Shown here: one piece after another, positions 1-12,430 of the stretch
Numbering within the stretch: position 1 is the first letter of the stretch
Layout of the letters: each line of letters starts with the position of its first letter
From: Sediminibacterium sp.
GTDB taxonomy: Bacteria; Bacteroidota; Bacteroidia; Chitinophagales; Chitinophagaceae
NCBI GenBank assembly: GCA_016786865.1
Contig: JAEUVE010000015.1
Location: 1 to 64,000, forward strand
Direction: 5' to 3'
DNA length: 64,000 nucleotides
Position numbers and translations under genes: made by a program
Notes under the pieces: generated by a model
What the model saw: the letters and a program-made list of their open reading frames with translations, nothing else
Database searches by the model: none
What the model was told of the DNA's origin: nothing

Positions 1-865
1 GGTAATCAGTGCTCGCCGTAATCGTTGGCGCTGTAAATACAGGTGTAGACTGTGCCGTACCAACATTGGTCCAGGTGCCCAGCCCTGCTGGTGAAGATTG
101 CCACTGGTAAGTAATACCTGTTGCAGTCAATGGGTAGCTGGTCAGTGTCAGTTGGGGAGTACCCGAACAGTTGAACGATGAAGTAAGCGCGGTGGCACCG
201 GAAATAGATGGAGTGCCGCTACATGGGTTAGCTATGGTCAGCTGCACATTGGGGCGGTAGATAAATAAGGTACCGTTCCCCGTAGGTGCAGAACCATCTG
301 CTTGCCAGTATTGTCCGCGATTCACGCCGGTACCCTGGTTGGTGTAACGGAATGCTTTCGCACTGCTGCCTTCGCCACCGCTACCGCCAAAGTTTGATTC
401 AATGATGATTTCAAGGTTGTCAGTACCGTTGTAGGTAAACGGCGTAGTTAATGTAACAGTTTTCCAGGCACCTGCTGTCCAGCCCGACAAAGTACCGCTG
501 TACACCAGGGTAGCTCCTGTTTGCTCTGTTGCCACAGTGCTTGTCGCAGCAAAGGTAGCAGCCGCAGTATGCTTCACGTGAATGTTCACGGGAACGTTAA
601 CCGGGGTTGACGCAGTTTCCAGGTAGAAACCAATAGCGTTCAGTTGACCGGGGCCGCCAATTTCTGAGGCCAGGTAAATAAGCGCTGTCCTTTCAAAACC
701 GAAGAATGCGCCGTAAGGTTTACGGGTTAGCGTCGTGTTAGAGCCGGTACCTACAGGGTTGCCCGTCGGGATAGTAACCTGGGCGGTTGCGTCAGCCAGA
801 AGCATGCAGAACAGCATGGCGACACCGACGACTTTTTTCATTAGAGGTAATTTGTTTCTTTTCAT
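1..865 (-). CDS. Secreted Ig-like/adhesion protein, N-terminal part (cut by window edge)
   Basis: The reading frame is open from the window edge to an ATG at 865, with an in-frame alternative at 841. The 841 start gives the cleaner signal peptide (MKKVVGVAMLF, hydrophobic core, cleavage near ATAQ) and is the likelier one. After the signal comes a beta-rich domain with GxYxGTDNLEIIIE-like strands, then a start of an Ig/PKD-like repeat containing TYQWQSS and TNVGTA. Such repeats are common in large Bacteroidota surface proteins exported by the type IX system. The C-terminus lies outside the window, so a sorting domain cannot be checked. No enzymatic motif is visible. Function beyond surface or secreted structural protein is unknown. 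Confidence 0.8.
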   Translation of the reverse strand, partial: MKRNKLPLMKKVVGVAMLFCMLLADATAQVTIPTGNPVGTGSNTTLTRKPYGAFFGFERTALIYLASEIGGPGQLNAIGFYLETASTPVNVPVNIHVKHTAAATFAATSTVATEQTGATLVYSGTLSGWTAGAWKTVTLTTPFTYNGTDNLEIIIESNFGGSGGEGSSAKAFRYTNQGTGVNRGQYWQADGSAPTGNGTLFIYRPNVQLTIANPCSGTPSISGATALTSSFNCSGTPQLTLTSYPLTATGITYQWQSSPAGLGTWTNVGTAQSTPVFTAPTITASTDY

Positions 866-1226
866 AAGCATTGGAATTTGTACGGTTGTTTAATTTCTTT
901 TACAAATGCTGGCACAAAAATAGGCCTTTTTTAGCTCGACATTAACGAACGATTAACTAAATCGAAAAAAAATATTATTATTCTCTTTACTAAACTAATC
1001 AATAGTTAAAAAATGGTTACCTACCGCGGTAGTGGTGCGGTAGCGAACAAGGCAACTGGTTTGGTGCTTAAAGGATTGTTAAAAAAATCGTTCCACCAAA
1101 ATTACCCCTGCCTGCTCCACACACTATTACCGCCATCATAGGGGCTATATACGGGTATAATTCCGCTTCGGATTGCGTAAATAACAAGTTATCAGTTATT
1201 TTAGCACCCAAATCCACCGCTTACCA
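866..1226. other. Gene-free stretch upstream of fabG
   Basis: This 361-bp stretch separates the leftward secreted-protein gene from rightward fabG and must contain both promoters. It is AT-rich, with stop codons in all frames. A perfect 12-bp palindrome, CTACCGCGGTAG, lies at 1021-1032 and is followed by a partial repeat of the same arm (GCGGTAGC). No clear -33/-7 pair could be assigned. Confidence 0.5.
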
Positions 1227-1973
1227 ATGAAATTGCTGGAAAATAAAGTGGCTTTAGTAACCGGTGCCAGTAGAGGCATTGGGGAAGCTATTGCTATACG
1301 ATTTGCTGAACATGGGGCAAATGTTGCCTTCACATATCTCTCTTCCGACGAACGCGCCAAAGCATTGGAGGAAAAACTGGCCGCCTATGGCGTAAAGGCT
1401 AAGGCGTACAAGTCCGATGCGGGAAACTACGCCGCCGCAGAGCAACTGACCAACGACGTGCTCGCCGACTTTGGGGCTGTAGATATATGTGTCAATAACG
1501 CCGGTATCTCCCGCGATAACCTCCTGCTGCGCCTCACCGAGGAACAATGGGACGACGTGATGCAGGCCAACCTGAAATCGGTGTACAACCTCACCAAGCA
1601 GGTGATAAAACCCATGATGAAGGCCCGCGCGGGCAGCATTATCAACCTCAGCTCCGTGGTGGGCGTGGAAGGAAATGCCGGCCAAAGCAGCTACGCCGCT
1701 TCCAAAGCCGGTATTATAGGCTTCACTAAGTCAATAGCACAGGAGCTGGGCAGCCGCAACATTCGCTGCAATTGCATCGCTCCCGGGTTTATAGAAACCG
1801 ACATGACCCACTACCTGAAAGATGGCGGTGCCGAAAAATGGTTCCAAAAGATACCGCTGGGGCGCTTTGGCAAGCCAGAAGAGGTGGCTGATGTGGCGCT
1901 ATTCCTGGCCAGCGGAATGAGCAGCTACGTGAGCGGGCAGGTAATACATACCTGCGGCGCCATGACAACATAA
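1227..1973 (+). CDS. fabG: 3-oxoacyl-ACP reductase (SDR family)
   Basis: This is an NADPH-dependent short-chain dehydrogenase that reduces 3-oxoacyl-ACP in the fatty-acid elongation cycle. At 248 residues it has the normal FabG length. The Rossmann glycine motif TGASRGIG is at 12-19 and NNAG at 90-93. The catalytic set is N115, S142/S143, Y156 and K160 (YAASK). The C-terminal region with PGFIETDM and the ending typical of FabG are intact. fabH follows 75 bp downstream on the same strand, with its own promoter-like element between, so the two belong to one fatty-acid gene pair. Another SDR reductase role cannot be fully excluded, but the neighbour supports FabG. Confidence 0.93.
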   Translation: MKLLENKVALVTGASRGIGEAIAIRFAEHGANVAFTYLSSDERAKALEEKLAAYGVKAKAYKSDAGNYAAAEQLTNDVLADFGAVDICVNNAGISRDNLLLRLTEEQWDDVMQANLKSVYNLTKQVIKPMMKARAGSIINLSSVVGVEGNAGQSSYAASKAGIIGFTKSIAQELGSRNIRCNCIAPGFIETDMTHYLKDGGAEKWFQKIPLGRFGKPEEVADVALFLASGMSSYVSGQVIHTCGAMTT

Positions 1974-2021
1974 GAAACTATCCTTATATCATTTTTTTAG
2001 TACTGTAATAGAGCAAACACC

Positions 2022-2029
2022 TAATTTTG
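2022..2029 (+). promoter_or_regulatory. Bacteroidota -7 element before fabH
   Basis: TAATTTTG matches the Bacteroidota -7 consensus TAnnTTTG and lies 20 bp before the fabH ATG. A TTAG about 20 bp upstream could serve as a weak -33 element. Confidence 0.45.
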
Positions 2030-2048
2030 CCTTTTTAAAAAAACCTAA

Positions 2049-3053
2049 ATGCAGAAAGTTCATGCCGCTATTACGGCGGTTGGCGGATACGTTCCCGAGT
2101 ATGTAATGACCAATGCGGAATTGGAGCAGATAGTAGACACTACCGACGAATGGATACAAACGCGTACCGGCATTAAGGAACGCCGGATACTGAAAGGAGA
2201 AGGAAAAGGAACATCAGACATGGCCGTAGAAGCCATCAGGAACCTGGCCCAAAAAGCGAATCTCGATCTGCTGGAGGTAGAATGCATCATCTGCGCTACT
2301 ACCACCCCCGATTTTACCTTTCCCGCCACCGCCAATGTAATATCCGACAAGCTGGGCATGAAAAACGCCTTTGGATACGATGTGAACGCCGCCTGCAGCG
2401 GTTTTTTGTTTGCACTTACCACCGGCGCTTCCTTTATAGAAAGCGGACGCTACAAGAAAGTTATAGTAGTGGGCGGCGACAAAATGAGCTCTATACTCAA
2501 CTACGACGACCGTACTACCTGCATCATATTTGGCGATGGATGTGGCGCCGTACTGCTGGAACCAACCACCGAAGGCGTAGGCATTATTGACTCCGTACTG
2601 AAAAGCGATGGAGCCGGACGTGCGTTCCTGCATCAGAAAGCAGGTGGCTCTGTAAAGCCAGCTACTGTAGAGACAGTAATGAACAAAGAGCACTTCGTGT
2701 ACCAGGAAGGACAAACCGTGTTCAAATTTGCCGTAAAGAATATGGCCGACGTTGCTGCGGAAATAATGCAGCGAAACAACCTGGTCGCCGACGATATATC
2801 TTGGCTGGTGCCGCACCAGGCCAATAAACGCATCATCTCTGCCACCAGCGACCGCATGGGTCTGCCCGAAGAAAAAGTAATGGTGAATATTGAAAAGTAT
2901 GGCAACACGACCAACGGCACATTACCCCTATGCCTGTGGGAGTGGGAAAGCAAACTGAAAAAAGGAGACAACATAGTATTGGCGGCCTTTGGTGGTGGCT
3001 TCACCTGGGGCGCTACTTATATCAAATGGGCGTATGATACTCCGGCTAAGTAA
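2049..3053 (+). CDS. fabH: 3-oxoacyl-ACP synthase III
   Basis: FabH condenses an acyl-CoA primer with malonyl-ACP to start fatty-acid synthesis, including the branched-chain primers common in Bacteroidota. The 334-residue protein has the usual thiolase fold length. The catalytic triad is visible: C116 in AACSGF, H256 in VPHQAN and N286 in the GNTTNG motif. The start ATG has no obvious Shine-Dalgarno sequence, as is normal for this phylum. A strong terminator follows 20 bp after the stop, so fabG/fabH form the end of a transcript. Its aligned length and intact triad make it a functional enzyme rather than a KASIII-like paralogue. Confidence 0.95.
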
Positions 3054-3072
3054 TCTCGATAATAATATTCTA

Positions 3073-3102
3073 AAAAAGGCGGCCTACATTGGCCGCCTTT
3101 TT
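3073..3102 (+). terminator. Rho-independent terminator after fabH
   Basis: An 11-bp stem (AAAAGGCGGCC pairing with GGCCGCCTTTT) with a 6-nt loop is followed by a T-rich run. Confidence 0.9.
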
Positions 3103-3246
3103 ATTTATTGTATGTTAGTAACACATATTGGCCTATAGACTGTAAGGCTTCTTATATTGACATTCCTCATAACCTGTTGCTGTTGCTCCTGCTCTGACAA
3201 CAAGCCAAAAAAGATTAGACAGTCATATCAGGACGCGGCATGTAAT

Positions 3247-3277
3247 AAAAAAAATGGAGCCTCTGACGAAGCTCCAC
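3247..3277 (-). terminator. Terminator of the first T9SS repeat protein
   Basis: Read on the minus strand, a TGGAGC/GCTCCA stem is followed by eight T residues, just after the stop codon at 3304. The same hairpin recurs at 4887-4916. Confidence 0.8.
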
Positions 3278-3303
3278 TTTATAATCTTATTCTCTACACG
3301 CAT

Positions 3304-4752
3304 TTACCGCACAACGCTAAACTGCTGGTAAGTAGCTTTACCCTTCACTCCCGCAACTTTAATTACGTAGTTACCCGCAGGTAACTGGTTCACATCTATG
3401 TTCCTTGAGTAGTTAGCTGTTGCTTTCTCGCTAAACGTCCTGATCATTCTTCCCTGCATGTCCGTAACAGAAACGGTAAAGGCTTGTGGTTGCTCCCATT
3501 CCATCTCTACACGCACGAAATGCGTAGCGGGCACCGGGTAAACTTTAAATGCACTTTCAGCTATCTCTGCGTCCTTCACACTCGTGGTGTAGGTTTCATA
3601 GTAATACCTGTTAGTTAAGTCGCCGCCATTGTGTCCCCAGGCACTGTTTATCCATCGGAACATCTTATCTGTCAGCACCTGGTTGTAGCTGTTGTAAGTC
3701 CATTCCATCTTCCGGTCGTTTACCCATGCGTTATTAAACCAATACTGATTGATGCGCGATAGCATATTATGGTTTCCGTCAAAGGTATTATCAACATTCG
3801 TGGCGTTATTACCGTTGCCGTATTGCTCCAGCGCATTTACCAAATCGTTGTTCACGTAGGTATTTGTAACCACTCGCGCGGTCACGTAGTTGCTGCCATC
3901 CCACGACTGCCTTGTTTCCGTGGCAGGCAGATCATTTTGGTTATAGGTAGTCAGGTAGCGGTTGTGTTTCTGCCATGTGTTAGTCTGCCAGCTTTCATCC
4001 CAGAGTTCTGTTTGCAGGTTATCGGTGTTGTAGGTATAGTGTAGCCGCGCCGTTGGATCCCATGAGCTGGTGCCGGTGTTCCATCCAGACCATTCCGTCA
4101 CAACCGTGTTATCATTGCCGTCCAGCGTATAAGTTGTCAGGTAAGCATTTTCCCATATGCCACCATTGTTAGTCAAGCCGGTTTCAGTCAGCAGGGTATT
4201 GTTACCGTTGTAAGTATAATAATAACGGTATACACTATCCCACGTGTTGTTTCCCGGGTTCCATTCCACCTCTGTCTCAGTTAGGGTATTGTTATTCACA
4301 TCGTAGGTGTACACTATGCCGTAACTGTTTACCCATGCAGTGCCATCCCATGCCTCCAGTAGTGTTGACAATATGTTACTGTTCCCGTCAAATGTTTGCG
4401 CCATCTTCTCAGCCTCCTGGAGCCCGCCTCCGTTATCTACCCACATCATTCCATTGTCGAATTTTATTTGCTTGCTATTCAGGTCTCCTCCTCGGCCGCC
4501 ACTATAATTAACGAATGCTGAATCGATAAAAATAAAAGCCGAACTATTATCATCATATTCCCCACCCGCAGCAGCTATAAGCCTGGATGCCGTAGCAGTT
4601 GACTTCTCTGCGTTGCTGGTTTGCCACAGATTGTTACCCGGCGCATGCCGCTCCTTTTTAAATGGATTTTTCCATAGACTTTGTTGGGCCGAAAGAGGAT
4701 TGGTAATAGTAAGGGCCATTGAGCACAGCGCTAAGGTTAAGGTCGCACGCAT
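3304..4752 (-). CDS. Secreted repeat protein with T9SS C-terminal sorting domain (copy 1)
   Basis: The start at 4752 is chosen because it gives a proper signal peptide (MRATLTLALCSMAL, cleavage near LSAQ). An ATG 15 codons upstream would bury it. The protein has about 482 residues. Its body is a series of about 35-residue repeats built around WDGTAW, YTYDxNNN and LTE, resembling loose YD-type repeats. The last 80 or so residues are a type A T9SS sorting domain (KVYPVPA, GRMIRTFSE, LPAGNYVIKV, QQFSVVR). It is expected to cross the outer membrane by the type IX system and stay on the surface or be released. It is paralogous to the next gene. No catalytic residues are recognised. Confidence 0.85.
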   Translation of the reverse strand: MRATLTLALCSMALTITNPLSAQQSLWKNPFKKERHAPGNNLWQTSNAEKSTATASRLIAAAGGEYDDNSSAFIFIDSAFVNYSGGRGGDLNSKQIKFDNGMMWVDNGGGLQEAEKMAQTFDGNSNILSTLLEAWDGTAWVNSYGIVYTYDVNNNTLTETEVEWNPGNNTWDSVYRYYYTYNGNNTLLTETGLTNNGGIWENAYLTTYTLDGNDNTVVTEWSGWNTGTSSWDPTARLHYTYNTDNLQTELWDESWQTNTWQKHNRYLTTYNQNDLPATETRQSWDGSNYVTARVVTNTYVNNDLVNALEQYGNGNNATNVDNTFDGNHNMLSRINQYWFNNAWVNDRKMEWTYNSYNQVLTDKMFRWINSAWGHNGGDLTNRYYYETYTTSVKDAEIAESAFKVYPVPATHFVRVEMEWEQPQAFTVSVTDMQGRMIRTFSEKATANYSRNIDVNQLPAGNYVIKVAGVKGKATYQQFSVVR

Positions 4753-4886
4753 AATAAGTAGTTTTTTTGTTCGGTAAATATAAAGGAATTCCCACATGAA
4801 ACATCCTTTTCATACGCTCCGGCAAAATTCAAAATAAGATTACTTTATGTTTCAGTTAATAATGACGTTCTATCTGCTCACAACAT

Positions 4887-4916
4887 AAAAAAATGGAGCC
4901 TCGTTCGAAGCTCCAC
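4887..4916 (-). terminator. Terminator of the second T9SS repeat protein
   Basis: A TGGAGC/GCTCCA stem is followed on the minus strand by a T run. It is nearly identical to the hairpin at 3247-3277, including the flanking bases leading into the stop codon. Confidence 0.8.
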
Positions 4917-4942
4917 TTTATAATCTTATTATCTACACGCAA

Positions 4943-6295
4943 TTACCGCACAACGCTAAACTGCTGGTAAGATACCTTTCCATTGGCATTGATCTTTACG
5001 AAGTAAGTACCGGCAGGGAATGAATGTGTATCAATAGTGCGCTTAAAATGACGTGCGCCTTTTTCGCTAAAGGATTTCAGCTGGTGGCCGTTCATATCTA
5101 TCACCGATACCGTCACATCTGTTGCCTCATCGTTGGCAAACGATACGTTCAGCAGGTTGCCCGCTGGCACGGGGTACACTTTCAGGTCGGTTACTGCCGC
5201 GCTGGTATTCCCTACGCTGGCAGTGTTATACGTCTCGTAGTAGTAGCTTCCCCAGCTATCGTAGTCTATATTGCCCCAGGCAGTGCCATCCCAGGTAGAA
5301 TCCTGCTCGGTCAGCACCTGGTTATAAGTATTATAAGTACGCGTTACCTTACGCTGGTTGACGAACGACCCGCTCCACGACTGCGCTATTTCAGTAAGGT
5401 TGTTGCCGTTACCGTCGTAGGTATAGAGCGTATTATTCATGTTCTGCCAGTTACCGTTCCAATATTGATCCAGCGAGCTCACTATGTTTCCACCCGTTAC
5501 GGTATTGGTTTGCAGGTACGAGTTCTCCCATGCGGTACCGTTCCATGTTTCGCGGAGGCTGGTGAGCATTACGTTGTTCATATCGTAGGTAATGGTCGTG
5601 CGCGAGTTATTTTCCCATGCAGTACCATTCCATACCTCATCTACAGATAGGGTCAGCATGTTGTTGGTATTGTAGGTATTGGTTGCGCGGTAGTCGTCTT
5701 CCAGTGTAGTACCGTTCCAGCTTTGGTTCAGTTCGGTCAGTACATTATTGTTACCATCGTAGGTATACGTGTATTTGTATGAGCTGTCCCAGGTGCTGGT
5801 GCCCAGGTTCCAGTCCATCTCGGTGCTGGTCAGCATGTTGTTGTTGCCGTCAAAGGTGTTCGCCGTTGCATAAGAGTTTACGAAAGCAGTGCCGTCCCAC
5901 TCCTTCTGTATAGAGCCAATGATGTTATCGTTCCCGTCAAAACTCTGCGAAAAGGTGTACCCATACTCCAGGCCGCTGCCATTGTTGGTGTAGTTAACAC
6001 CGGTGTCAAACTTTATCCACTCAGAGTTCAGGTCGCCGCCCCGGCTGCCCGTGTAGCTGATGTGGCTGGTATCCATCAGCAGGAACGAGACACTGTCCTC
6101 GTTGTACAGCCGCATCGCAACAGCTACTATCCGCGACGCGGTAGCTGTCGACTTCTGCGCCAGCGTAGTGGCCGCGGCGGGCTTTGTCTTTTGGTTAAAC
6201 AATTGCTGAGTCCGGGTCTGCTTTTGTGCAGTTTGTGCGTTGGCCTGCATAGCCAATGATAGGGCCGCAAGCCCAAGTGTCCATTTTAAATTCAT
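4943..6295 (-). CDS. Secreted repeat protein with T9SS C-terminal sorting domain (copy 2)
   Basis: This 450-residue paralogue of the downstream gene starts with a signal peptide (MNLKWTLGLAALSLAMQANAQ). A basic, Gln/Thr-rich stretch follows, then repeats of the form WNGTAWENS, YTYDGNNN, LTE. The C-terminal T9SS domain (LKVYPVPAGNLL, LPxGTYFVKI-like, YQQFSVVR) is preserved. Both copies share the motif STATASRxxA after the signal and the GGRGGDLNS-type segment near residue 80. The two genes lie head to tail, each with its own terminator, so they are probably separate transcripts arising from a tandem duplication. The ligand or role is unknown. Confidence 0.85.
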   Translation of the reverse strand: MNLKWTLGLAALSLAMQANAQTAQKQTRTQQLFNQKTKPAAATTLAQKSTATASRIVAVAMRLYNEDSVSFLLMDTSHISYTGSRGGDLNSEWIKFDTGVNYTNNGSGLEYGYTFSQSFDGNDNIIGSIQKEWDGTAFVNSYATANTFDGNNNMLTSTEMDWNLGTSTWDSSYKYTYTYDGNNNVLTELNQSWNGTTLEDDYRATNTYNTNNMLTLSVDEVWNGTAWENNSRTTITYDMNNVMLTSLRETWNGTAWENSYLQTNTVTGGNIVSSLDQYWNGNWQNMNNTLYTYDGNGNNLTEIAQSWSGSFVNQRKVTRTYNTYNQVLTEQDSTWDGTAWGNIDYDSWGSYYYETYNTASVGNTSAAVTDLKVYPVPAGNLLNVSFANDEATDVTVSVIDMNGHQLKSFSEKGARHFKRTIDTHSFPAGTYFVKINANGKVSYQQFSVVR

Positions 6296-6433
6296 GTGGT
6301 GTATTTTAAATAATAAGTCTTTGTGAGCAAAAAAGATGCCGGGATTGTGTTTGAACCGGAATTAAACTGATTTATAGAATTTATCAACGGTAGGCTGCCA
6401 CTACACACTCCCGCTGGAAACTCGTGCGGCCTC

Positions 6434-7483
6434 CTAGGAAGCCGCCGATGGGGCATCTATATTCGCCAGCTGCCCGCAGGCCGCGTCTATGTCCTTACCA
6501 CGGCTGCGCCGGAGGCGTGCGTTCACGCGTTTCGATTCCAGGTATTTCATAAACGCCTCTACCTTATCGTCATCCGGCTTTTCAAACTTCGCCGCGTCTA
6601 TCGGGTTATACTCAATGATGTTCACCAGGTCGGCGGGTACCTGCCGGTATATCTTCACCAGGTTATCGGCATCCTCTACACTGTCGTTAAAATCCTTGAA
6701 CAGAATGTACTCAAAGGTTATCTCGTTGCCTGTCTGCTTATAGAAATAGTTGAGCGCCTCTATCAGCCCCTTCAGATCGTTAGTCTCGTTTATGGGCATT
6801 ATCTCGTTGCGCTTCTTATCGTCAGCGGCGTGCAGCGACAGCGCCAGCTTAAAGCGTACCTTATCATCGCCCAGCTGCCGTATCATTTTAGACACCCCCG
6901 CCGTAGAAACCGTTATCCGCTTGGGGCTCATACCCAGGCTATCGGGGGAGGTTATTTTCTCTATCGCCTTCAGTACATTCTTATAGTTGAGCAGCGGCTC
7001 ACCCATACCCATGAACACGATATTTGTCAGCCCCTTTCCATATTGGGCCATGGCCTGCTCGTTCACCAGCACTACCTCGTCTACTATTTCGTCATAGTCC
7101 ATATTGCGTTTGCGGGGCAGGTATCCCGTAGCGCAGAACTTACAGGAGAGCGAGCAGCCCACCTGCGACGATACGCATACCGTCATACGTTTATCCGTAG
7201 GTATCAGTACGCTTTCCACGTAGTAGCCATCGTGCAATTGCAGGCGGTTCTTAATGGTGCCATCGCTGCTATACTGGCTGTGGTGCGTTTGCACCTTAGG
7301 TATGAAAAATTCGGCGGATAGCTTTTCGCGCAGCGGCTTGGAAAGGTTCGTCATCTCGTCTATACTGCCCGCGAATTTCTTCCACATCCACTCATATACC
7401 TGGCGGGCCCTGAACTTAGGTTCGCCCCACCCCGTAAAGAGGGTTTCCAGCTCTTCCAGGCTGCAATTCCGCAAATTTTTCAT
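6434..7483 (-). CDS. rlmN: Dual-specificity 23S rRNA/tRNA (adenine-C2) methyltransferase
   Basis: This radical-SAM enzyme methylates A2503 of 23S rRNA and A37 of some tRNAs. The CxxxCxxC cluster motif is C110, C114 and C117. The mechanistic C-terminal cysteine is C336 in AACGQL. The GMGEPLLNY and LALSLHAA motifs typical of RlmN, rather than Cfr, are present. The 349-residue length is normal. The gene stands alone on the minus strand between the T9SS proteins and a divergent SRPBCC gene. The ATG is chosen because the next upstream codons give no conserved sequence. Confidence 0.95.
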   Translation of the reverse strand: MKNLRNCSLEELETLFTGWGEPKFRARQVYEWMWKKFAGSIDEMTNLSKPLREKLSAEFFIPKVQTHHSQYSSDGTIKNRLQLHDGYYVESVLIPTDKRMTVCVSSQVGCSLSCKFCATGYLPRKRNMDYDEIVDEVVLVNEQAMAQYGKGLTNIVFMGMGEPLLNYKNVLKAIEKITSPDSLGMSPKRITVSTAGVSKMIRQLGDDKVRFKLALSLHAADDKKRNEIMPINETNDLKGLIEALNYFYKQTGNEITFEYILFKDFNDSVEDADNLVKIYRQVPADLVNIIEYNPIDAAKFEKPDDDKVEAFMKYLESKRVNARLRRSRGKDIDAACGQLANIDAPSAAS

Positions 7484-7629
7484 GCGGCAAAGGTAGGCTT
7501 AAAGCGCAAGAGCTGGATAGGGTAATACGTTAAAAAATGTTACTGCGCACAAGGGGCTCACCACATAGGGTTACCGAATAAAACAATCCACATTCCCGGG
7601 CGGAAGCTATTACAAGTAATTATTTTTAA

Positions 7630-7637
7630 TATTTTTG
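7630..7637 (+). promoter_or_regulatory. -7 promoter element before the SRPBCC gene
   Basis: TATTTTTG matches TAnnTTTG and lies 22 bp before the ATG at 7660. No convincing TTTG -33 partner is seen. Confidence 0.4.
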
Positions 7638-7659
7638 AGCCATCAAAACTAAAACGATC

Positions 7660-8670
7660 ATGAAAAAATTCTTACGCATTGTAGTTATTATCCTCCTGCT
7701 GCTGGTAGCGGTGGTAGTAGTGGCTGGCCTGATAGCGCCCAAAGAGACCAATATACAGACATCCATAGACATTAACGCTCCCAGGGAGCAGGTATGGGAG
7801 CAAGCCATGAAATTTAAAAACTGGGGCAACTGGAGCTACTGGCACCGCATAGACACCAACCAAACCGTTACCTATGCGGGCACCGATGGCGAGCCAGGCA
7901 GCAGTTATAGCTGGAAGGGCGAAGAAACCGGCGAAGGTACCATGACCAACAAAGGCATGGAAAACGGAAAGATGAATTACGAACTCAAATTCATAAAGCC
8001 ATTTGAAGGCACTTCCGATGGGTATATAATGGTAGAAGATGCGGGCAATGGGGTTACCAAGGTTACCTGGACATTCCACTCCGTGAACGATAACTTCCTG
8101 ATGCGCGCAATGGGCGCCATCATGGGCATGGAAAAAATGCTGAAAAGCCAGTTCGACGAAGGGCTAGCCAACATGAAAAAACACGTGGAAGAGCATAAGG
8201 GCGATGCTCCCGCCGCAGCCAACTTTACCATCCAGGACGCACAGTTCCCCGGCAATACTTACGCGGGCGTGCGCAAGACAATAAAATGGGCCGATATGGA
8301 GAAAACCATGCCGGGCATGTACGAAACTACTGCCAAAGCCGCTGGCGACCGCATCACGGGACCGGCAATAGCCATTTACTACAATTGGGATACCGTAAAG
8401 AAAGAAGCAGACGTGTATGCCGGCTTCCCAGTGAAAGACGACAAATCCGCAGCGGGCACCACCATCGTAAAAATACCGGCGGCCAAAGCATACCTGGTTA
8501 ACTTTACAGGCAACTACGACCAACTGGAAAAAATACACTACCAGATAGGCGCACATGCCGAAAAGAACAAAACAGAAGTGGCCTATGTACTGGAAGAATA
8601 CCTGAAAATGGCCCCCGAAGAAAAAGATATGAACAAATGGGAAACCAACGTGTACTACATATCAAAGTAG
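7660..8670 (+). CDS. Membrane-anchored SRPBCC domain fused to a GyrI-like effector-binding domain
   Basis: The 336-residue protein begins with a single hydrophobic segment (about residues 5-25) that probably anchors it in the membrane. Residues 33-180 form a SRPBCC/polyketide-cyclase-like fold (INAPREQVWEQ, FKNWGNWSYW). Residues about 190-336 resemble a GyrI-like/AraC effector-binding domain (FPGNTYAGVRKTI, YYNWD, YAGFPV, AYLVNFTGNYDQL). Both folds bind small hydrophobic or drug-like ligands. There is no DNA-binding domain, so it is more likely a sequestration or sensing protein than a regulator. The gene is monocistronic, with a strong terminator behind it. The family occurs widely in Bacteroidota, but no specific substrate can be named. 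Confidence 0.8.
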   Translation: MKKFLRIVVIILLLLVAVVVVAGLIAPKETNIQTSIDINAPREQVWEQAMKFKNWGNWSYWHRIDTNQTVTYAGTDGEPGSSYSWKGEETGEGTMTNKGMENGKMNYELKFIKPFEGTSDGYIMVEDAGNGVTKVTWTFHSVNDNFLMRAMGAIMGMEKMLKSQFDEGLANMKKHVEEHKGDAPAAANFTIQDAQFPGNTYAGVRKTIKWADMEKTMPGMYETTAKAAGDRITGPAIAIYYNWDTVKKEADVYAGFPVKDDKSAAGTTIVKIPAAKAYLVNFTGNYDQLEKIHYQIGAHAEKNKTEVAYVLEEYLKMAPEEKDMNKWETNVYYISK

Positions 8671-8685
8671 TGAACATACCTCGCT

Positions 8686-8721
8686 AAAAAGCCGCCCCAT
8701 ACAATCCCGGGGCGGCTTTTT
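8686..8721 (+). terminator. Rho-independent terminator after the SRPBCC gene
   Basis: The arms AAAAAGCCGCCCC and GGGGCGGCTTTTT form a long GC-rich stem ending in T residues. Confidence 0.9.
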
Positions 8722-8769
8722 CGTTATTTAAAGCGATGCCCCTTATATTCGCAATTCGTAGGGCTATAA

Positions 8770-10716
8770 ATGAAAGTATCGGTAATTATTGTAAACTATA
8801 ATGTGAAGTACTTCCTGGAGGTATGCCTGCACTCTGTATACAGGGCGCTGACGGGCACCAACGGAGAGGTAATAGTAGTAGACAATAACTCTACCGATGA
8901 TAGCTGCGAGATGGTGCGACGTCAGTTCCCCGAAACCATACTGATAGCCAACCAGGAAAATACCGGCTTCTCTAAGGCCAACAACCAGGGCGTGGCAATT
9001 GCCCGCGGAGAGTACATCCTCTTCCTGAACCCCGATACCGTAATGCCCGAAGATTTCTTCCAGCGCACCATACCCTACCTCGACGGGCATCCGCAGGTGG
9101 GCGCGCTCGGCCCCCGGCTCATAGACGGTAAGGGTACCTTTGCCCCAGACTCGAAGAAATCGTTCCCTACCCTCTCGGTAGCAATATTCAAGACCACCGG
9201 CATCAATAAAATATTCAGCCAATCCCCCTATTTCAATAAGTACTACGCCGTACATATAAAAGAGCAGCAGACAGCGGAAGTAGAAGTACTCTCGGGCTGC
9301 TGCATGCTGGTGCGCCGCAAAGCAATAGACGAAGCGGGTGGCGCTTTCGACGAGGACTATTTTATGTACTGCGAAGACGTAGACCTCTCTTACCGCCTGC
9401 AGAAAAGCGGCTACCCCAACATCTACTTTCCCGAAGCCACACTCATACACTACAAGGGCGAAAGTACCCGAAAGGCCACCCTGTCTTATGTGCGCATCTT
9501 CAACGAGGCGCTCTCTACGTTTGTTCGCAAGCACTACGACAGCCAGAAGGCACGCTTGTTCATCCTGTTCATTAATATAGGCATCGTGCTGCGAGCTATC
9601 CTGAGCGCGGTGAAGAACGTGCTGAAAGTGCTGCGCATGCCCCTATTCGATGCGCTGGTGCTGCTGGGCAGCCTTTCGCTGATGCAGAACTTCTGGGTAG
9701 AGCACGTAAAGAATATAGGAGTGATACCCCCTCGGTCGTTATACCTTACCTTCCCCGTATATGTAGTGCTCTGGCTGGTCAGTATGTTCTTCAATGGCGC
9801 CTACGACCAGCCCTACCGCCCGCTGCGGGTGGCCCGCGGCATGGTAACCGGCACCATCGCCATACTGGCCTACTACGGCCTGCTCCCGCCCGATCTGCGC
9901 TACTCGCGCGCACTCATTGTGTTCAGCGGCGTTACGGGCACCGTGGCTCTGCTGGGCCTGCACGAGTTGCTCTACCGCCTGGGCATACTGAAGTTCATCC
10001 CGTACGATAAACTGCCCCGCAAAGCAGTGATAGTAGGCACGGAGAGCGACTTTGAGGAAACCTCGGCCACGCTCCGCCGCGTAAACTACGCCCCCGAGCT
10101 ATCCGGCAGGGTCAGCATATCGGCCGGCGACACCAGGGCGCTGGCCACCCTCGCCGAAATGAAATCGCTGCTCTACACAGCCGGCATCAACGAAGTCATC
10201 TTCTGCGTAAAAGACCTTAGCTACGAAGAAGTATTCCGCCAGATGCAGCTTTGCGGAAAAGAATATGACTACAAAATACACCTGCCCAACAGCCAGAGCT
10301 TTATAGGCAGCAACTCCAGCAACACCGCAGGCGACCTCTATACCATCGACCGGAAGTACAACCTTTCCAGCTTCTCGCAGCTGCGCAACAAGCGCATGCT
10401 CGATATCCTGTCGGCCCTGGTATTCCTCCTGCTGTTCCCGCTTGCCCTGCTGGCAAAAAGGCCCGGCGGATTCCTGGCCAACTGCGTGCGGGTACTCTCC
10501 GGCCGCAAAACCTGGGTAGGCTACTCGGGCAACACACGCGGCAAGCGCCTGCCCGTTATTAAGCCGGGAGTGGTCCCCCCCTTCAATATACTGCCGGGAT
10601 ATACACCCGGAGAAGAGGTAAAACAGCAGCTGGACACCGTATACGCACAGCACTACTGGCCCGGCGCCGACATAGGCCTGATACTTAAGAATTATAAATA
10701 TTTAGGCGGTAGCTAG
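8770..10716 (+). CDS. GT2 glycosyltransferase fused to a membrane domain and a degenerate sugar-phosphotransferase-like region
   Basis: Residues 1-240 form a GT-A family 2 rhamnosyltransferase-like domain (VSVIIVNYNVK, VVDNNSTDDS, LNPDT, GCCMLVRR, YCEDVDLSYRL). About four or five membrane segments follow (260-400). Next come a Rossmann-like stretch (KAVIVGTESDFEET) and a C-terminal segment starting NKRMLDILSALVFLLLFPLAL, which resembles the membrane entry of bacterial sugar transferases (PF02397). The later catalytic motifs of that family are absent, so this part is probably inactive or structural. It likely acts in cell-surface polysaccharide or lipid-linked glycan synthesis at the inner membrane. 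It lies alone between a terminator and tRNA-Asn. Confidence 0.85.
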   Translation: MKVSVIIVNYNVKYFLEVCLHSVYRALTGTNGEVIVVDNNSTDDSCEMVRRQFPETILIANQENTGFSKANNQGVAIARGEYILFLNPDTVMPEDFFQRTIPYLDGHPQVGALGPRLIDGKGTFAPDSKKSFPTLSVAIFKTTGINKIFSQSPYFNKYYAVHIKEQQTAEVEVLSGCCMLVRRKAIDEAGGAFDEDYFMYCEDVDLSYRLQKSGYPNIYFPEATLIHYKGESTRKATLSYVRIFNEALSTFVRKHYDSQKARLFILFINIGIVLRAILSAVKNVLKVLRMPLFDALVLLGSLSLMQNFWVEHVKNIGVIPPRSLYLTFPVYVVLWLVSMFFNGAYDQPYRPLRVARGMVTGTIAILAYYGLLPPDLRYSRALIVFSGVTGTVALLGLHELLYRLGILKFIPYDKLPRKAVIVGTESDFEETSATLRRVNYAPELSGRVSISAGDTRALATLAEMKSLLYTAGINEVIFCVKDLSYEEVFRQMQLCGKEYDYKIHLPNSQSFIGSNSSNTAGDLYTIDRKYNLSSFSQLRNKRMLDILSALVFLLLFPLALLAKRPGGFLANCVRVLSGRKTWVGYSGNTRGKRLPVIKPGVVPPFNILPGYTPGEEVKQQLDTVYAQHYWPGADIGLILKNYKYLGGS

Positions 10717-10723
10717 AAAAAAT

Positions 10724-10753
10724 TTTGACAAAAGGGGAAAGTGCTTATTTTTG
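10724..10753 (+). promoter_or_regulatory. Promoter of tRNA-Asn
   Basis: TTTG at 10724-10727 and TATTTTTG at 10746-10753, spaced 18 bp, match the Bacteroidota -33/-7 consensus and sit just before the tRNA start at 10768. Confidence 0.75.
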
Positions 10754-10767
10754 CAATCCCAATTCAA

Positions 10768-10841
10768 GCTTCCTTAGCTCAGTTGGTTAGAGCATCTGAC
10801 TGTTAATCAGAGGGTCTCAGGTTCAAGTCCTGAAGGGGGAG
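10768..10841 (+). tRNA. tRNA-Asn (GTT) with a mispaired acceptor stem
   Basis: The D arm (GCTC/GAGC), anticodon arm (TCTGA/TCAGA, loop CTGTTAA, anticodon GTT at 10802-10804), T arm (TCAGG/CCTGA) and discriminator G73 all fit tRNA-Asn. CCA is not fully encoded (GCA follows). The acceptor stem is odd: GCTTCCT against AGGGGGA gives G1 opposite A72 and U-G pairs at 3-70 and 4-69. Each half looks normal alone but not together. This suggests that the 5' and 3' halves come from two different tRNA-Asn genes. Confidence 0.9.
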
Positions 10842-10852
10842 CAGATAAAAGG

Positions 10853-10886
10853 AAAAGGGTTATACTTTGATAGTATGACCCTTTTC
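10853..10886 (+). terminator. Terminator after tRNA-Asn
   Basis: AAAAGGGT pairs with ACCCTTTT, with an inner ATAC/GTAT helix, and a T-rich run follows. Confidence 0.8.
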
Positions 10887-10932
10887 TTTTTAAACTATAT
10901 CAAAGTCTTATTGTTACTGGGGTAATAGAGAT

Positions 10933-11388
10933 ATGCGCCCCCTGATAAAAAATAAAAAGCTAGAATTAAAATATGTACCCGGCAAGGGCGCTTGGACATA
11001 CCATTTGGAAATCCCTGGCACAAAAGACATCAAAGGAAAGTGGGGAGATATGAAGGTGTCTGGTAATATCGATGGTTATCGAATTGAAAAGAGAAACCTA
11101 GCGCCCATAAGGGGCGCAGATAAGATCATTTCTATCAATGATACGATCCGAAAAGCTATCGGCAAATCAGGTGGCGATATGGTTTCGGTAACCCTATATC
11201 TTGATTCATACAAGCAGAAAATTAATAAAAAGGACATTGTAGCGGCATTCAGGGATGCAGGAGTACTCCCTTCATTCAGGAGTCAGCCCAAGGAAAAACA
11301 GACTGAAATAATACAGCAGATACTTTCAGGTGAAACAGAGAATAAGCAGATTCAACAAATTACTAAGTACATAGATTTGTTGAGTTGA
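10933..11388 (+). CDS. DUF1905/YdeI (OmdA)-like protein
   Basis: The 151-residue soluble protein has an N-terminal DUF1905-like domain (about 10-95: TYHLEIPG, KVSGNIDGY, RGADKIISIND, IRKAIGKSGGDMVSVTLYLD). A short YdeI/OmdA-like helical tail follows (FRDAGVLPSF, KEKQTEIIQQIL). Members of this family are small stress- or bacteriocin-protection-annotated proteins with no proven reaction. It is the first gene after the tRNA junction and is distinctly more AT-rich than the block to its left. The start is the first ATG after the tRNA terminator. Function is unproven. Confidence 0.75.
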   Translation: MRPLIKNKKLELKYVPGKGAWTYHLEIPGTKDIKGKWGDMKVSGNIDGYRIEKRNLAPIRGADKIISINDTIRKAIGKSGGDMVSVTLYLDSYKQKINKKDIVAAFRDAGVLPSFRSQPKEKQTEIIQQILSGETENKQIQQITKYIDLLS

Positions 11389-11549
11389 CGATGCCTCCGA
11401 CTTTTTAACTACTTTAATATTTGATATAAAACAAATTAAGTGGGATTGTAATTGCCGATAGCTGCATCTTTCGTCAATAAGGGGAGCAAAAAAGTCTTAC
11501 CGTTTTGTAGTATCTTTTTTTGTTGTAGTTTCAAATAAAGATAAATACA

Positions 11550-12029
11550 ATGAAACCCTATGTATCGCTACTGATTGTATTGCTGCCCATTTTAGGATTT
11601 ACGCAAAAAAACGAATATGCAATATCTTCTTATCTGGAAGAAGGCGTAAAAGCTCCTAATACAAATTATATAGGTGAGGCCTGGTTAAAACCCCTGATTC
11701 AGGGAGGCGGAGATTTAAACTATAATATTACCAAAGCAACTTTCAGGGCCAACTCAACACTCGACTGGCACAAACACCCAACAACACAAATTCTCATTAT
11801 TATTGATGGAGAAGGATATTATCAGGAGAGGGGTAAAGAAGCGGTTATTCTAAAAAAGGGAGATCTGATTAAATGTAATAAAGACATTGAACATTGGCAC
11901 ACCTCTACAAAAGAAAGTTCAGTATCCTATTTGGCTATATATGGAGGAACGCAACCAACTATTTGGACTGAAAAGCTAACTCAGGAATATTATGATAGTA
12001 TTGCTCAAAAATTGAAGTTTAAAAAATGA
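11550..12029 (+). CDS. Secreted cupin-domain protein
   Basis: The 159-residue protein has a signal peptide (MKPYVSLLIVLLPILGFTQ). A single cupin_2 domain follows, with metal-binding residues in STLDWHKHPTTQ and EHWHTS and the glycine-rich GEGYYQERG strand between. Such periplasmic cupins often bind a metal and act as small-molecule dioxygenases, isomerases or sensors. The stop codon overlaps the start of the next gene (ATGA), so the two secreted proteins are translated together and probably act on the same substrate. Which substrate cannot be told from sequence. Confidence 0.8.
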   Translation: MKPYVSLLIVLLPILGFTQKNEYAISSYLEEGVKAPNTNYIGEAWLKPLIQGGGDLNYNITKATFRANSTLDWHKHPTTQILIIIDGEGYYQERGKEAVILKKGDLIKCNKDIEHWHTSTKESSVSYLAIYGGTQPTIWTEKLTQEYYDSIAQKLKFKK

Positions 12030-12430
12030 AACACCTTATGTCAGGTAGTCTTTTTCGATTTTTCCTTATGGCAGGTTTAGCTACCCTTACAGGCCTTACC
12101 TTAACAGCACAGGATTCTGACAAAATGTACAGAATTGCAAAAATCAAGGTGGCTGCAACTCAACTGGAAGAATATAAAGCCGCACTGTCGGAACAGATGA
12201 ATTCCGCAATTAAATCAGAACCGGGTGTGTTGTCTTACATGGCCGTTGCCGATAAAAAGGACCCTACATTGATAACTATTTTAGAAGTGTACGCCAATGC
12301 AAAAGCCTATCAGGCTCATATATCAACAAAGCATTTTAAAAAATATAAAGAAACTGTGAAAGACTGGGTTTTATCTCTGGAGTTAATCGATACAGAATTG
12401 GTGGCAAGTGCCAGAAAAAAGGATTTCTGA
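12026..12430 (+). CDS. Exported antibiotic-biosynthesis-monooxygenase (ABM) domain protein
   Basis: After an N-terminal hydrophobic export signal (residues 1-30, ending near LTAQ), the 134-residue protein holds one dimeric alpha/beta-barrel ABM domain (MYRIAKIKV, EPGVLSYMAVADKKDPT, ILEVYANAKAYQAHIST, HFKKYKE). Family members are quinol or anthrone monooxygenases, or stress-related proteins such as YgiN. It overlaps the cupin gene by 4 bp. Export of an ABM domain is less usual than a cytoplasmic location. An oxidative role on quinone-like compounds in the periplasm is an inference. Confidence 0.8.
   Translation: MKHLMSGSLFRFFLMAGLATLTGLTLTAQDSDKMYRIAKIKVAATQLEEYKAALSEQMNSAIKSEPGVLSYMAVADKKDPTLITILEVYANAKAYQAHISTKHFKKYKETVKDWVLSLELIDTELVASARKKDF

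Follow-up and report, generated by a model that had tools for sequence, protein, structure and literature searches.

Additive flexible genomic islands have been described at tRNA genes of Alteromonas (PMC4119200), Ca. Actinomarinales (PMC7771536) and Ca. Methylopumilus (fGI-2; PMC10872708), and Dehalococcoides carries tandem islands anchored at ssrA (PMC3146451). No paper on integron-like cassettes located at tRNA genes of Chitinophagaceae turned up in a literature search. On the assembly side, k-mer assemblers can make paths through shared stretches that are found in no genome (PMC8172020). The locus described here touches on both subjects: a tRNA-Asn gene whose two halves were very probably fused during assembly is followed, on its genuine side, by one cassette of what may well be an integron-like system.

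The DNA analysed (hereafter, the window) is a stretch of 64,000 nucleotides that corresponds to positions 1–64000 of contig C21 of this genome; it starts at the contig start, so its left block forms the contig tip. The features at the junction are as follows.

About 10768–10842, plus strand: tRNA-Asn(GTT), very probably chimeric, the sole tRNA in the window (ARAGORN)
10771–10837, no strand: interval that would hold the false join, 67 bp shared exactly by both parent tRNA-Asn types

The original prediction described the genes left of the tRNA as GC-richer, with more GC-ending codons and ATA, and those on the right as AT-richer, and the values bear this out. GC content was 0.496 in positions 1–10700 vs 0.396–0.447 in five blocks right of the tRNA-Asn, GC3 was 0.629 in left vs 0.430 in right genes, and the ATA share of Ile codons was 0.556 vs 0.182. 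The tetranucleotide correlation with other parts of the same genome was r = 0.62 for the left block vs r = 0.92–0.95 for the right blocks. Direct reading of the tRNA also agreed with the claim that its acceptor strands are incompatible: positions 1–7 (GCTTCCT) face positions 66–72 (AGGGGGA), with G1 opposite A72, G-U pairs at T3-G70 and T4-G69, the remaining positions paired, and a G as discriminator. Folded alone, the gene slipped out of register (−21.0 kcal/mol, z −0.22); the seven-pair acceptor stem was complete in both the other tRNA-Asn of the same genome (−25.6 kcal/mol, z −1.96) and that of UBA7674 (−25.1 kcal/mol, z −2.09). The compositional break and the acceptor mismatch were confirmed as first described, and are far beyond chance.

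The left block contains the following features.

1–10770, no strand: foreign block, tip of contig C21 (synteny with UBA7674 at locus L077, RlmN tree, composition)
1227–1973, plus strand: FabG-type 3-oxoacyl-ACP reductase, 91% identity to UBA7674
2049–3053, plus strand: FabH-type ketoacyl-ACP synthase III, 92% to UBA7674
3304–4797 and 4943–6295, minus strand: two T9SS-sorted secreted paralogues
6434–7483, minus strand: RlmN, 92% to UBA7674
7660–8670, plus strand: polyketide-cyclase/GyrI-like protein, 55% to UBA7674
8770–10716, plus strand: glycosyltransferase of 648 aa adjoining the tRNA, 79% to UBA7674

The gene order FabG-FabH-T9SS protein-RlmN-cyclase-glycosyltransferase-tRNA-Asn is shared with 'Bacteroidetes bacterium UBA7674' (DLHG01000009). 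RlmN was present in every relative searched, almost always as a single copy. The present genome carries it twice, in the window (64–68% identical to full-length RlmN genes of the same genus) and on contig C4 (a genus-type copy, 65% identical to the window one). In the RlmN tree, the window copy was sister to UBA7674 (support 100/98) within the Flavipsychrobacter/Taibaiella clade, and the C4 copy grouped inside the genus beside G021 (support 96/80). A further FabH copy, on contig C14, was 72% identical to that of the window. The glycosyltransferase had full-length homologues in other families of the same order, and only partial matches, none of them full-length, in the 24 same-genus genomes searched. 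Together with composition, these sequence comparisons indicate that about 10.8 kb came from a relative of UBA7674 in the Flavipsychrobacter/Taibaiella group. The right flank of the donor-type (UBA7674-type) locus gave only 67–77% matches in this genome, which we read as probable native homologues. Taibaiella soli and Flavipsychrobacter stenotrophus (L110 and L112) each have two complete tRNA-Asn genes close together, which suggests that duplication of the whole tRNA also occurs in the donor group.

The tRNA-Asn of UBA7674 has the leader seen in the window and pairs GCTTCCT with AGGGAGC. The window gene thus has a 5' acceptor strand of UBA7674 type and a 3' acceptor strand of the genus type. 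Exact-run comparison showed that the window equals UBA7674 without difference over 10742–10837 and the same-genus genome G011 over 10771–10842, and the switch therefore lies within 10771–10837. The proposal that a conserved tRNA core had joined two tRNA-Asn loci now has both of its parents, the UBA7674 type on the left and the genus type on the right, and searches for synteny with the two flanks led to UBA7674 and to same-genus genomes, respectively. The junction, with its gene order and acceptor stem, was absent from all relatives examined. One might suppose that the tRNA is a decayed pseudogene derived from the native gene, and that the change in composition is nothing unusual, given that a second, intact tRNA-Asn exists in the genome. 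However, its first seven bases and leader equal those of one specific other lineage and do not look like random decay, and the UBA7674 synteny and the RlmN tree contradict a native origin; we consider the pseudogene reading ruled out for practical purposes.

The right side has the following features.

10843–10890, plus strand: first genuine cassette, left-end terminator hairpin, AAAAGGGTTATAC..GTATGACCCTTTTC
10933–11388, plus strand: DUF1905 protein, cassette gene
11463–11487, plus strand: cassette right-end site TGCATCTTTCGTCAATAAGGGGAGC, with a core AAGGGGAGC that copies the tRNA-Asn 3' end
11550–12430, plus strand: cupin and antibiotic-biosynthesis-monooxygenase-like genes, whose homologues in relatives lie just 3' of tRNA-Asn
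12431–64000, no strand: native chromosome of the genus; G017, G011 and G021 are collinear with it 3' of their tRNA-Asn

The genes 3' of tRNA-Asn in these three genomes (in G017 on a single contig) match the window from about 12 to 55 kb, with the order largely kept. In the same genus, tRNA-Asn genes have TCCTCCT at their start, or a variant with complete pairing, and are located after hflX and a Rieske-type gene (both names assigned by reading of the sequences). This genome has its own hflX-Rieske-tRNA-Asn locus on contig C23, where the acceptor strands TCCTCCT and AGGAGGA pair fully, about 180 bp from the contig end. C23 is presumably the true left neighbour of the right part of C21. The last 183 bp of C23, after the genuine tRNA-Asn (L184:19698-19880), gave only short terminator-like matches among the loci compared and no continuation into C21. 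As the C23 tRNA ends in AGGAGGA and is followed by this tail, the two contigs do not fit end to end, perhaps because the first cassette varies between strains or because a cassette is missing.

Given two lineages on the two sides, a join in sequence identical in both parents, and a native locus elsewhere in the assembly, we are confident that the junction in the tRNA-Asn is an artefact of assembly, in so far as sequence comparison can tell. The sample would appear to have contained both this organism and a Flavipsychrobacter/Taibaiella-type bacterium, with tRNA-Asn genes sharing at least 67 identical bases. Coming from foreign DNA (glycosyltransferase, leader, 5' half of the tRNA-Asn), the assembler would have entered the shared stretch and continued into DNA of this organism (3' half of the tRNA-Asn, terminator, DUF1905 cassette, native chromosome). 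Having switched genomes inside the shared stretch, it would have printed a tRNA present in neither organism.

The original prediction had left misassembly and recombination side by side, of which misassembly is now much better supported. Under real homologous recombination, a foreign fragment would have been taken up and its right end recombined in the shared tRNA-Asn core; the foreign block would then be truly chromosomal and the tRNA a genuine hybrid gene, damaged but accompanied by an intact copy. The 67-bp identity could serve as substrate and the intact tRNA-Asn on C23 would make a damaged copy tolerable, but the block begins at a contig end, keeps the donor order and composition and duplicates housekeeping genes, and hflX-Rieske, the expected left neighbour, is intact with its own tRNA-Asn on a different contig. 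Because of the contig tip and the genome's own RlmN, FabH and hflX-Rieske-tRNA-Asn, we prefer misassembly and regard such recombination as improbable.

A site-specific element could also have integrated into a tRNA-Asn of UBA7674 type, at the 3' end, and put its own 3' acceptor strand in place of the original, leaving the G1/A72 mismatch, and tRNA-Asn is indeed an integration hotspot in the genus (cassettes, large-serine-recombinase elements, and a tyrosine-integrase element in G061). Insertion at a tRNA 3' end would, however, add DNA 3' and not 5', which again favours misassembly: at this junction the foreign DNA lies 5', and the DNA 3' of the tRNA is native, collinear with relatives wherever this was tested. 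Searches of contig C21 gave neither a PF00589 match nor a relative of the serine recombinase tested, and the junction itself showed no foreign DNA 3' of the tRNA and no integrase beside it. This makes a swapped acceptor strand very unlikely, and a genomic island was ruled out for the left block, which lies on the wrong side of the tRNA with its donor synteny intact.

Some observations weigh against misassembly. Only a single foreign block was found and the contamination estimate of the bin is 0.1%; C23, with AGGAGGA and its 183-bp tail, does not run into the right part of C21; and such a mis-join would be less likely if the assembly were long-read. The locus nevertheless looks like the chimeric contigs of k-mer (de Bruijn) metagenome assemblies (PMC8172020, PMC8201837) in that two genomes are fused via shared exact sequence, the graph context is lost and a contig tip belongs to a foreign lineage. 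Unlike in typical cases, the joining repeat here is one tRNA gene, which leaves a diagnostic broken acceptor stem, and the marker-based contamination estimate misses the mis-join. Through the assembly chimera, a bin rated 98.9% complete and 0.1% contaminated would contain about 10.8 kb of foreign genes (a second RlmN, FabG, FabH and a glycosyltransferase), and reading this block as a transfer at a tRNA would be misleading. Acceptor strands from two lineages in one tRNA provide a cheap, sequence-only test for mis-joins.

On the genuine side, the window contains one cassette (DUF1905), at about 10843–11487. Its hairpin class is also found after tRNA-Asn or cassette sites in relatives. In G003 (L181), a DUF1905 homologue (55%) lies in the first cassette, right after hflX-Rieske-tRNA-Asn and the same terminator; the DUF1905 gene comes first among the cassette genes of both genomes, in opposite orientations. 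Similar arrays were seen in relatives at L171, L174, L175, L228, L231, L235 and L242.

Many members of the genus have short cassettes 3' of tRNA-Asn, with the terminator first and a conserved site ending in the core last. The site consensus (≤3 mismatches) was detected in 30 of the 101 same-genus genomes and a looser pattern listed 51 distinct sites; in the order, 19 of 398 genomes, from eight genera, had a similar site pattern. The reversed-pattern control for the genus and the control for the order both gave zero. In the mapped loci, hflX-Rieske-tRNA-Asn is followed by segments of 0.15–8 kb, mostly about 0.6–2 kb with 1–3 genes, every one with a site at its end and all sites in the same orientation relative to the tRNA; a terminator-like hairpin, of several sequence classes, follows nearly every core. 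Among the cassette genes scanned were those for a short-chain dehydrogenase, a helix-turn-helix protein, a DUF2442/DUF4160 pair, a nucleotidyltransferase-like protein, a sulfatase and a peroxidase.

The identity of G011 and G091 is 99.7% up to the ninth base of the core at the tRNA; beyond that point both have the same two cassettes (97.3 and 97.7% identical), but arranged in opposite order, with ends at or near the core. A cassette common to G006 and G068 is 97.9% identical although the upstream flanking DNA is only 69% identical, which points to horizontal transfer. Scans of IMG/VR found no virus carrying the cassette site or the tRNA 3' half.

With repeats of the tRNA 3' end and reordered cassettes bounded by them, the right side has the features of an additive tRNA-anchored island, and the array resembles the known ones (PMC4119200, PMC7771536, PMC10872708) in its tRNA target, variable cassettes, tRNA 3'-end repeats and interspecies transfer. 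It differs in that the tRNA copy is a 9–10 bp core within a longer conserved site and that most cassettes are about 0.6–2 kb, with 1–3 genes and the terminator first. The Dehalococcoides ssrA islands (PMC3146451) are likewise in tandem at one RNA gene, with 3'-end repeats, islands without their own integrase and a large serine recombinase adjoining the RNA gene (here in G102, G123 and G027); most of the cassettes described here are much smaller, and the serine recombinase is only a candidate mover. Integrons share the ordered, exchangeable short cassettes, the single site orientation and the single anchoring locus, but here the anchor is a tRNA gene, the cassettes bring their own leading terminators, and no integrase was found among the array genes examined (a PF00589 scan of part of them).

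That the cassettes are bounded by a short core which rebuilds the end of the tRNA suggests site-specific recombination, anchored at tRNA-Asn. The scan of cassette and array genes, which covered a part of all array genes, found no recombinase and no PF00589 protein. Large serine recombinases abut tRNA-Asn in G102 (L249:6774-8366), G123 and G027. G021 has a remnant of one, and in G075 and G107 copies that are partial or lie at a contig end adjoin a 3' end resembling that of tRNA-Asn. Such genes or fragments at tRNA-Asn-type 3' ends were recorded at L249, L270, L276, L290, L294 and L296. The left ends of these elements (CATAATAGACAGGAGG.. and CACACTAGACTGC..) are similar to one of the classes of left end found in cassettes (CACACTGGACAAGCC..), and large serine recombinases are the best candidates for moving cassettes in trans. 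G061 has a tyrosine integrase (Arm-DNA-bind_5, SAM_5, Phage_integrase; L248:14302-15525) upstream of cassette sites. The duplication of the tRNA-Asn 3' end in its element spans about 45 bp (L248:15700-15750, in the array region), against the 9–10 bp core that is all the cassettes share, and this integrase is therefore not favoured as the mover. Nor do the data support a tyrosine integrase dedicated to the cassettes in every genome with an array: for its three sites, G008 has just two PF00589 genes, both of about 300 aa and Xer-like by length.

On balance, we lean towards reading the right side as one cassette of a tRNA-Asn-anchored, integron-like system in Chitinophagales, with non-autonomous cassettes moved in trans by a recombinase encoded outside the array, possibly the large serine recombinases abutting the same tRNA. 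Since each cassette carries its own leading terminator, the tRNA would keep its 3' end and a terminator after insertion. The genuine flank of the junction thus exposes a hotspot of gene-cassette shuffling that recurs across the genus and several other genera.
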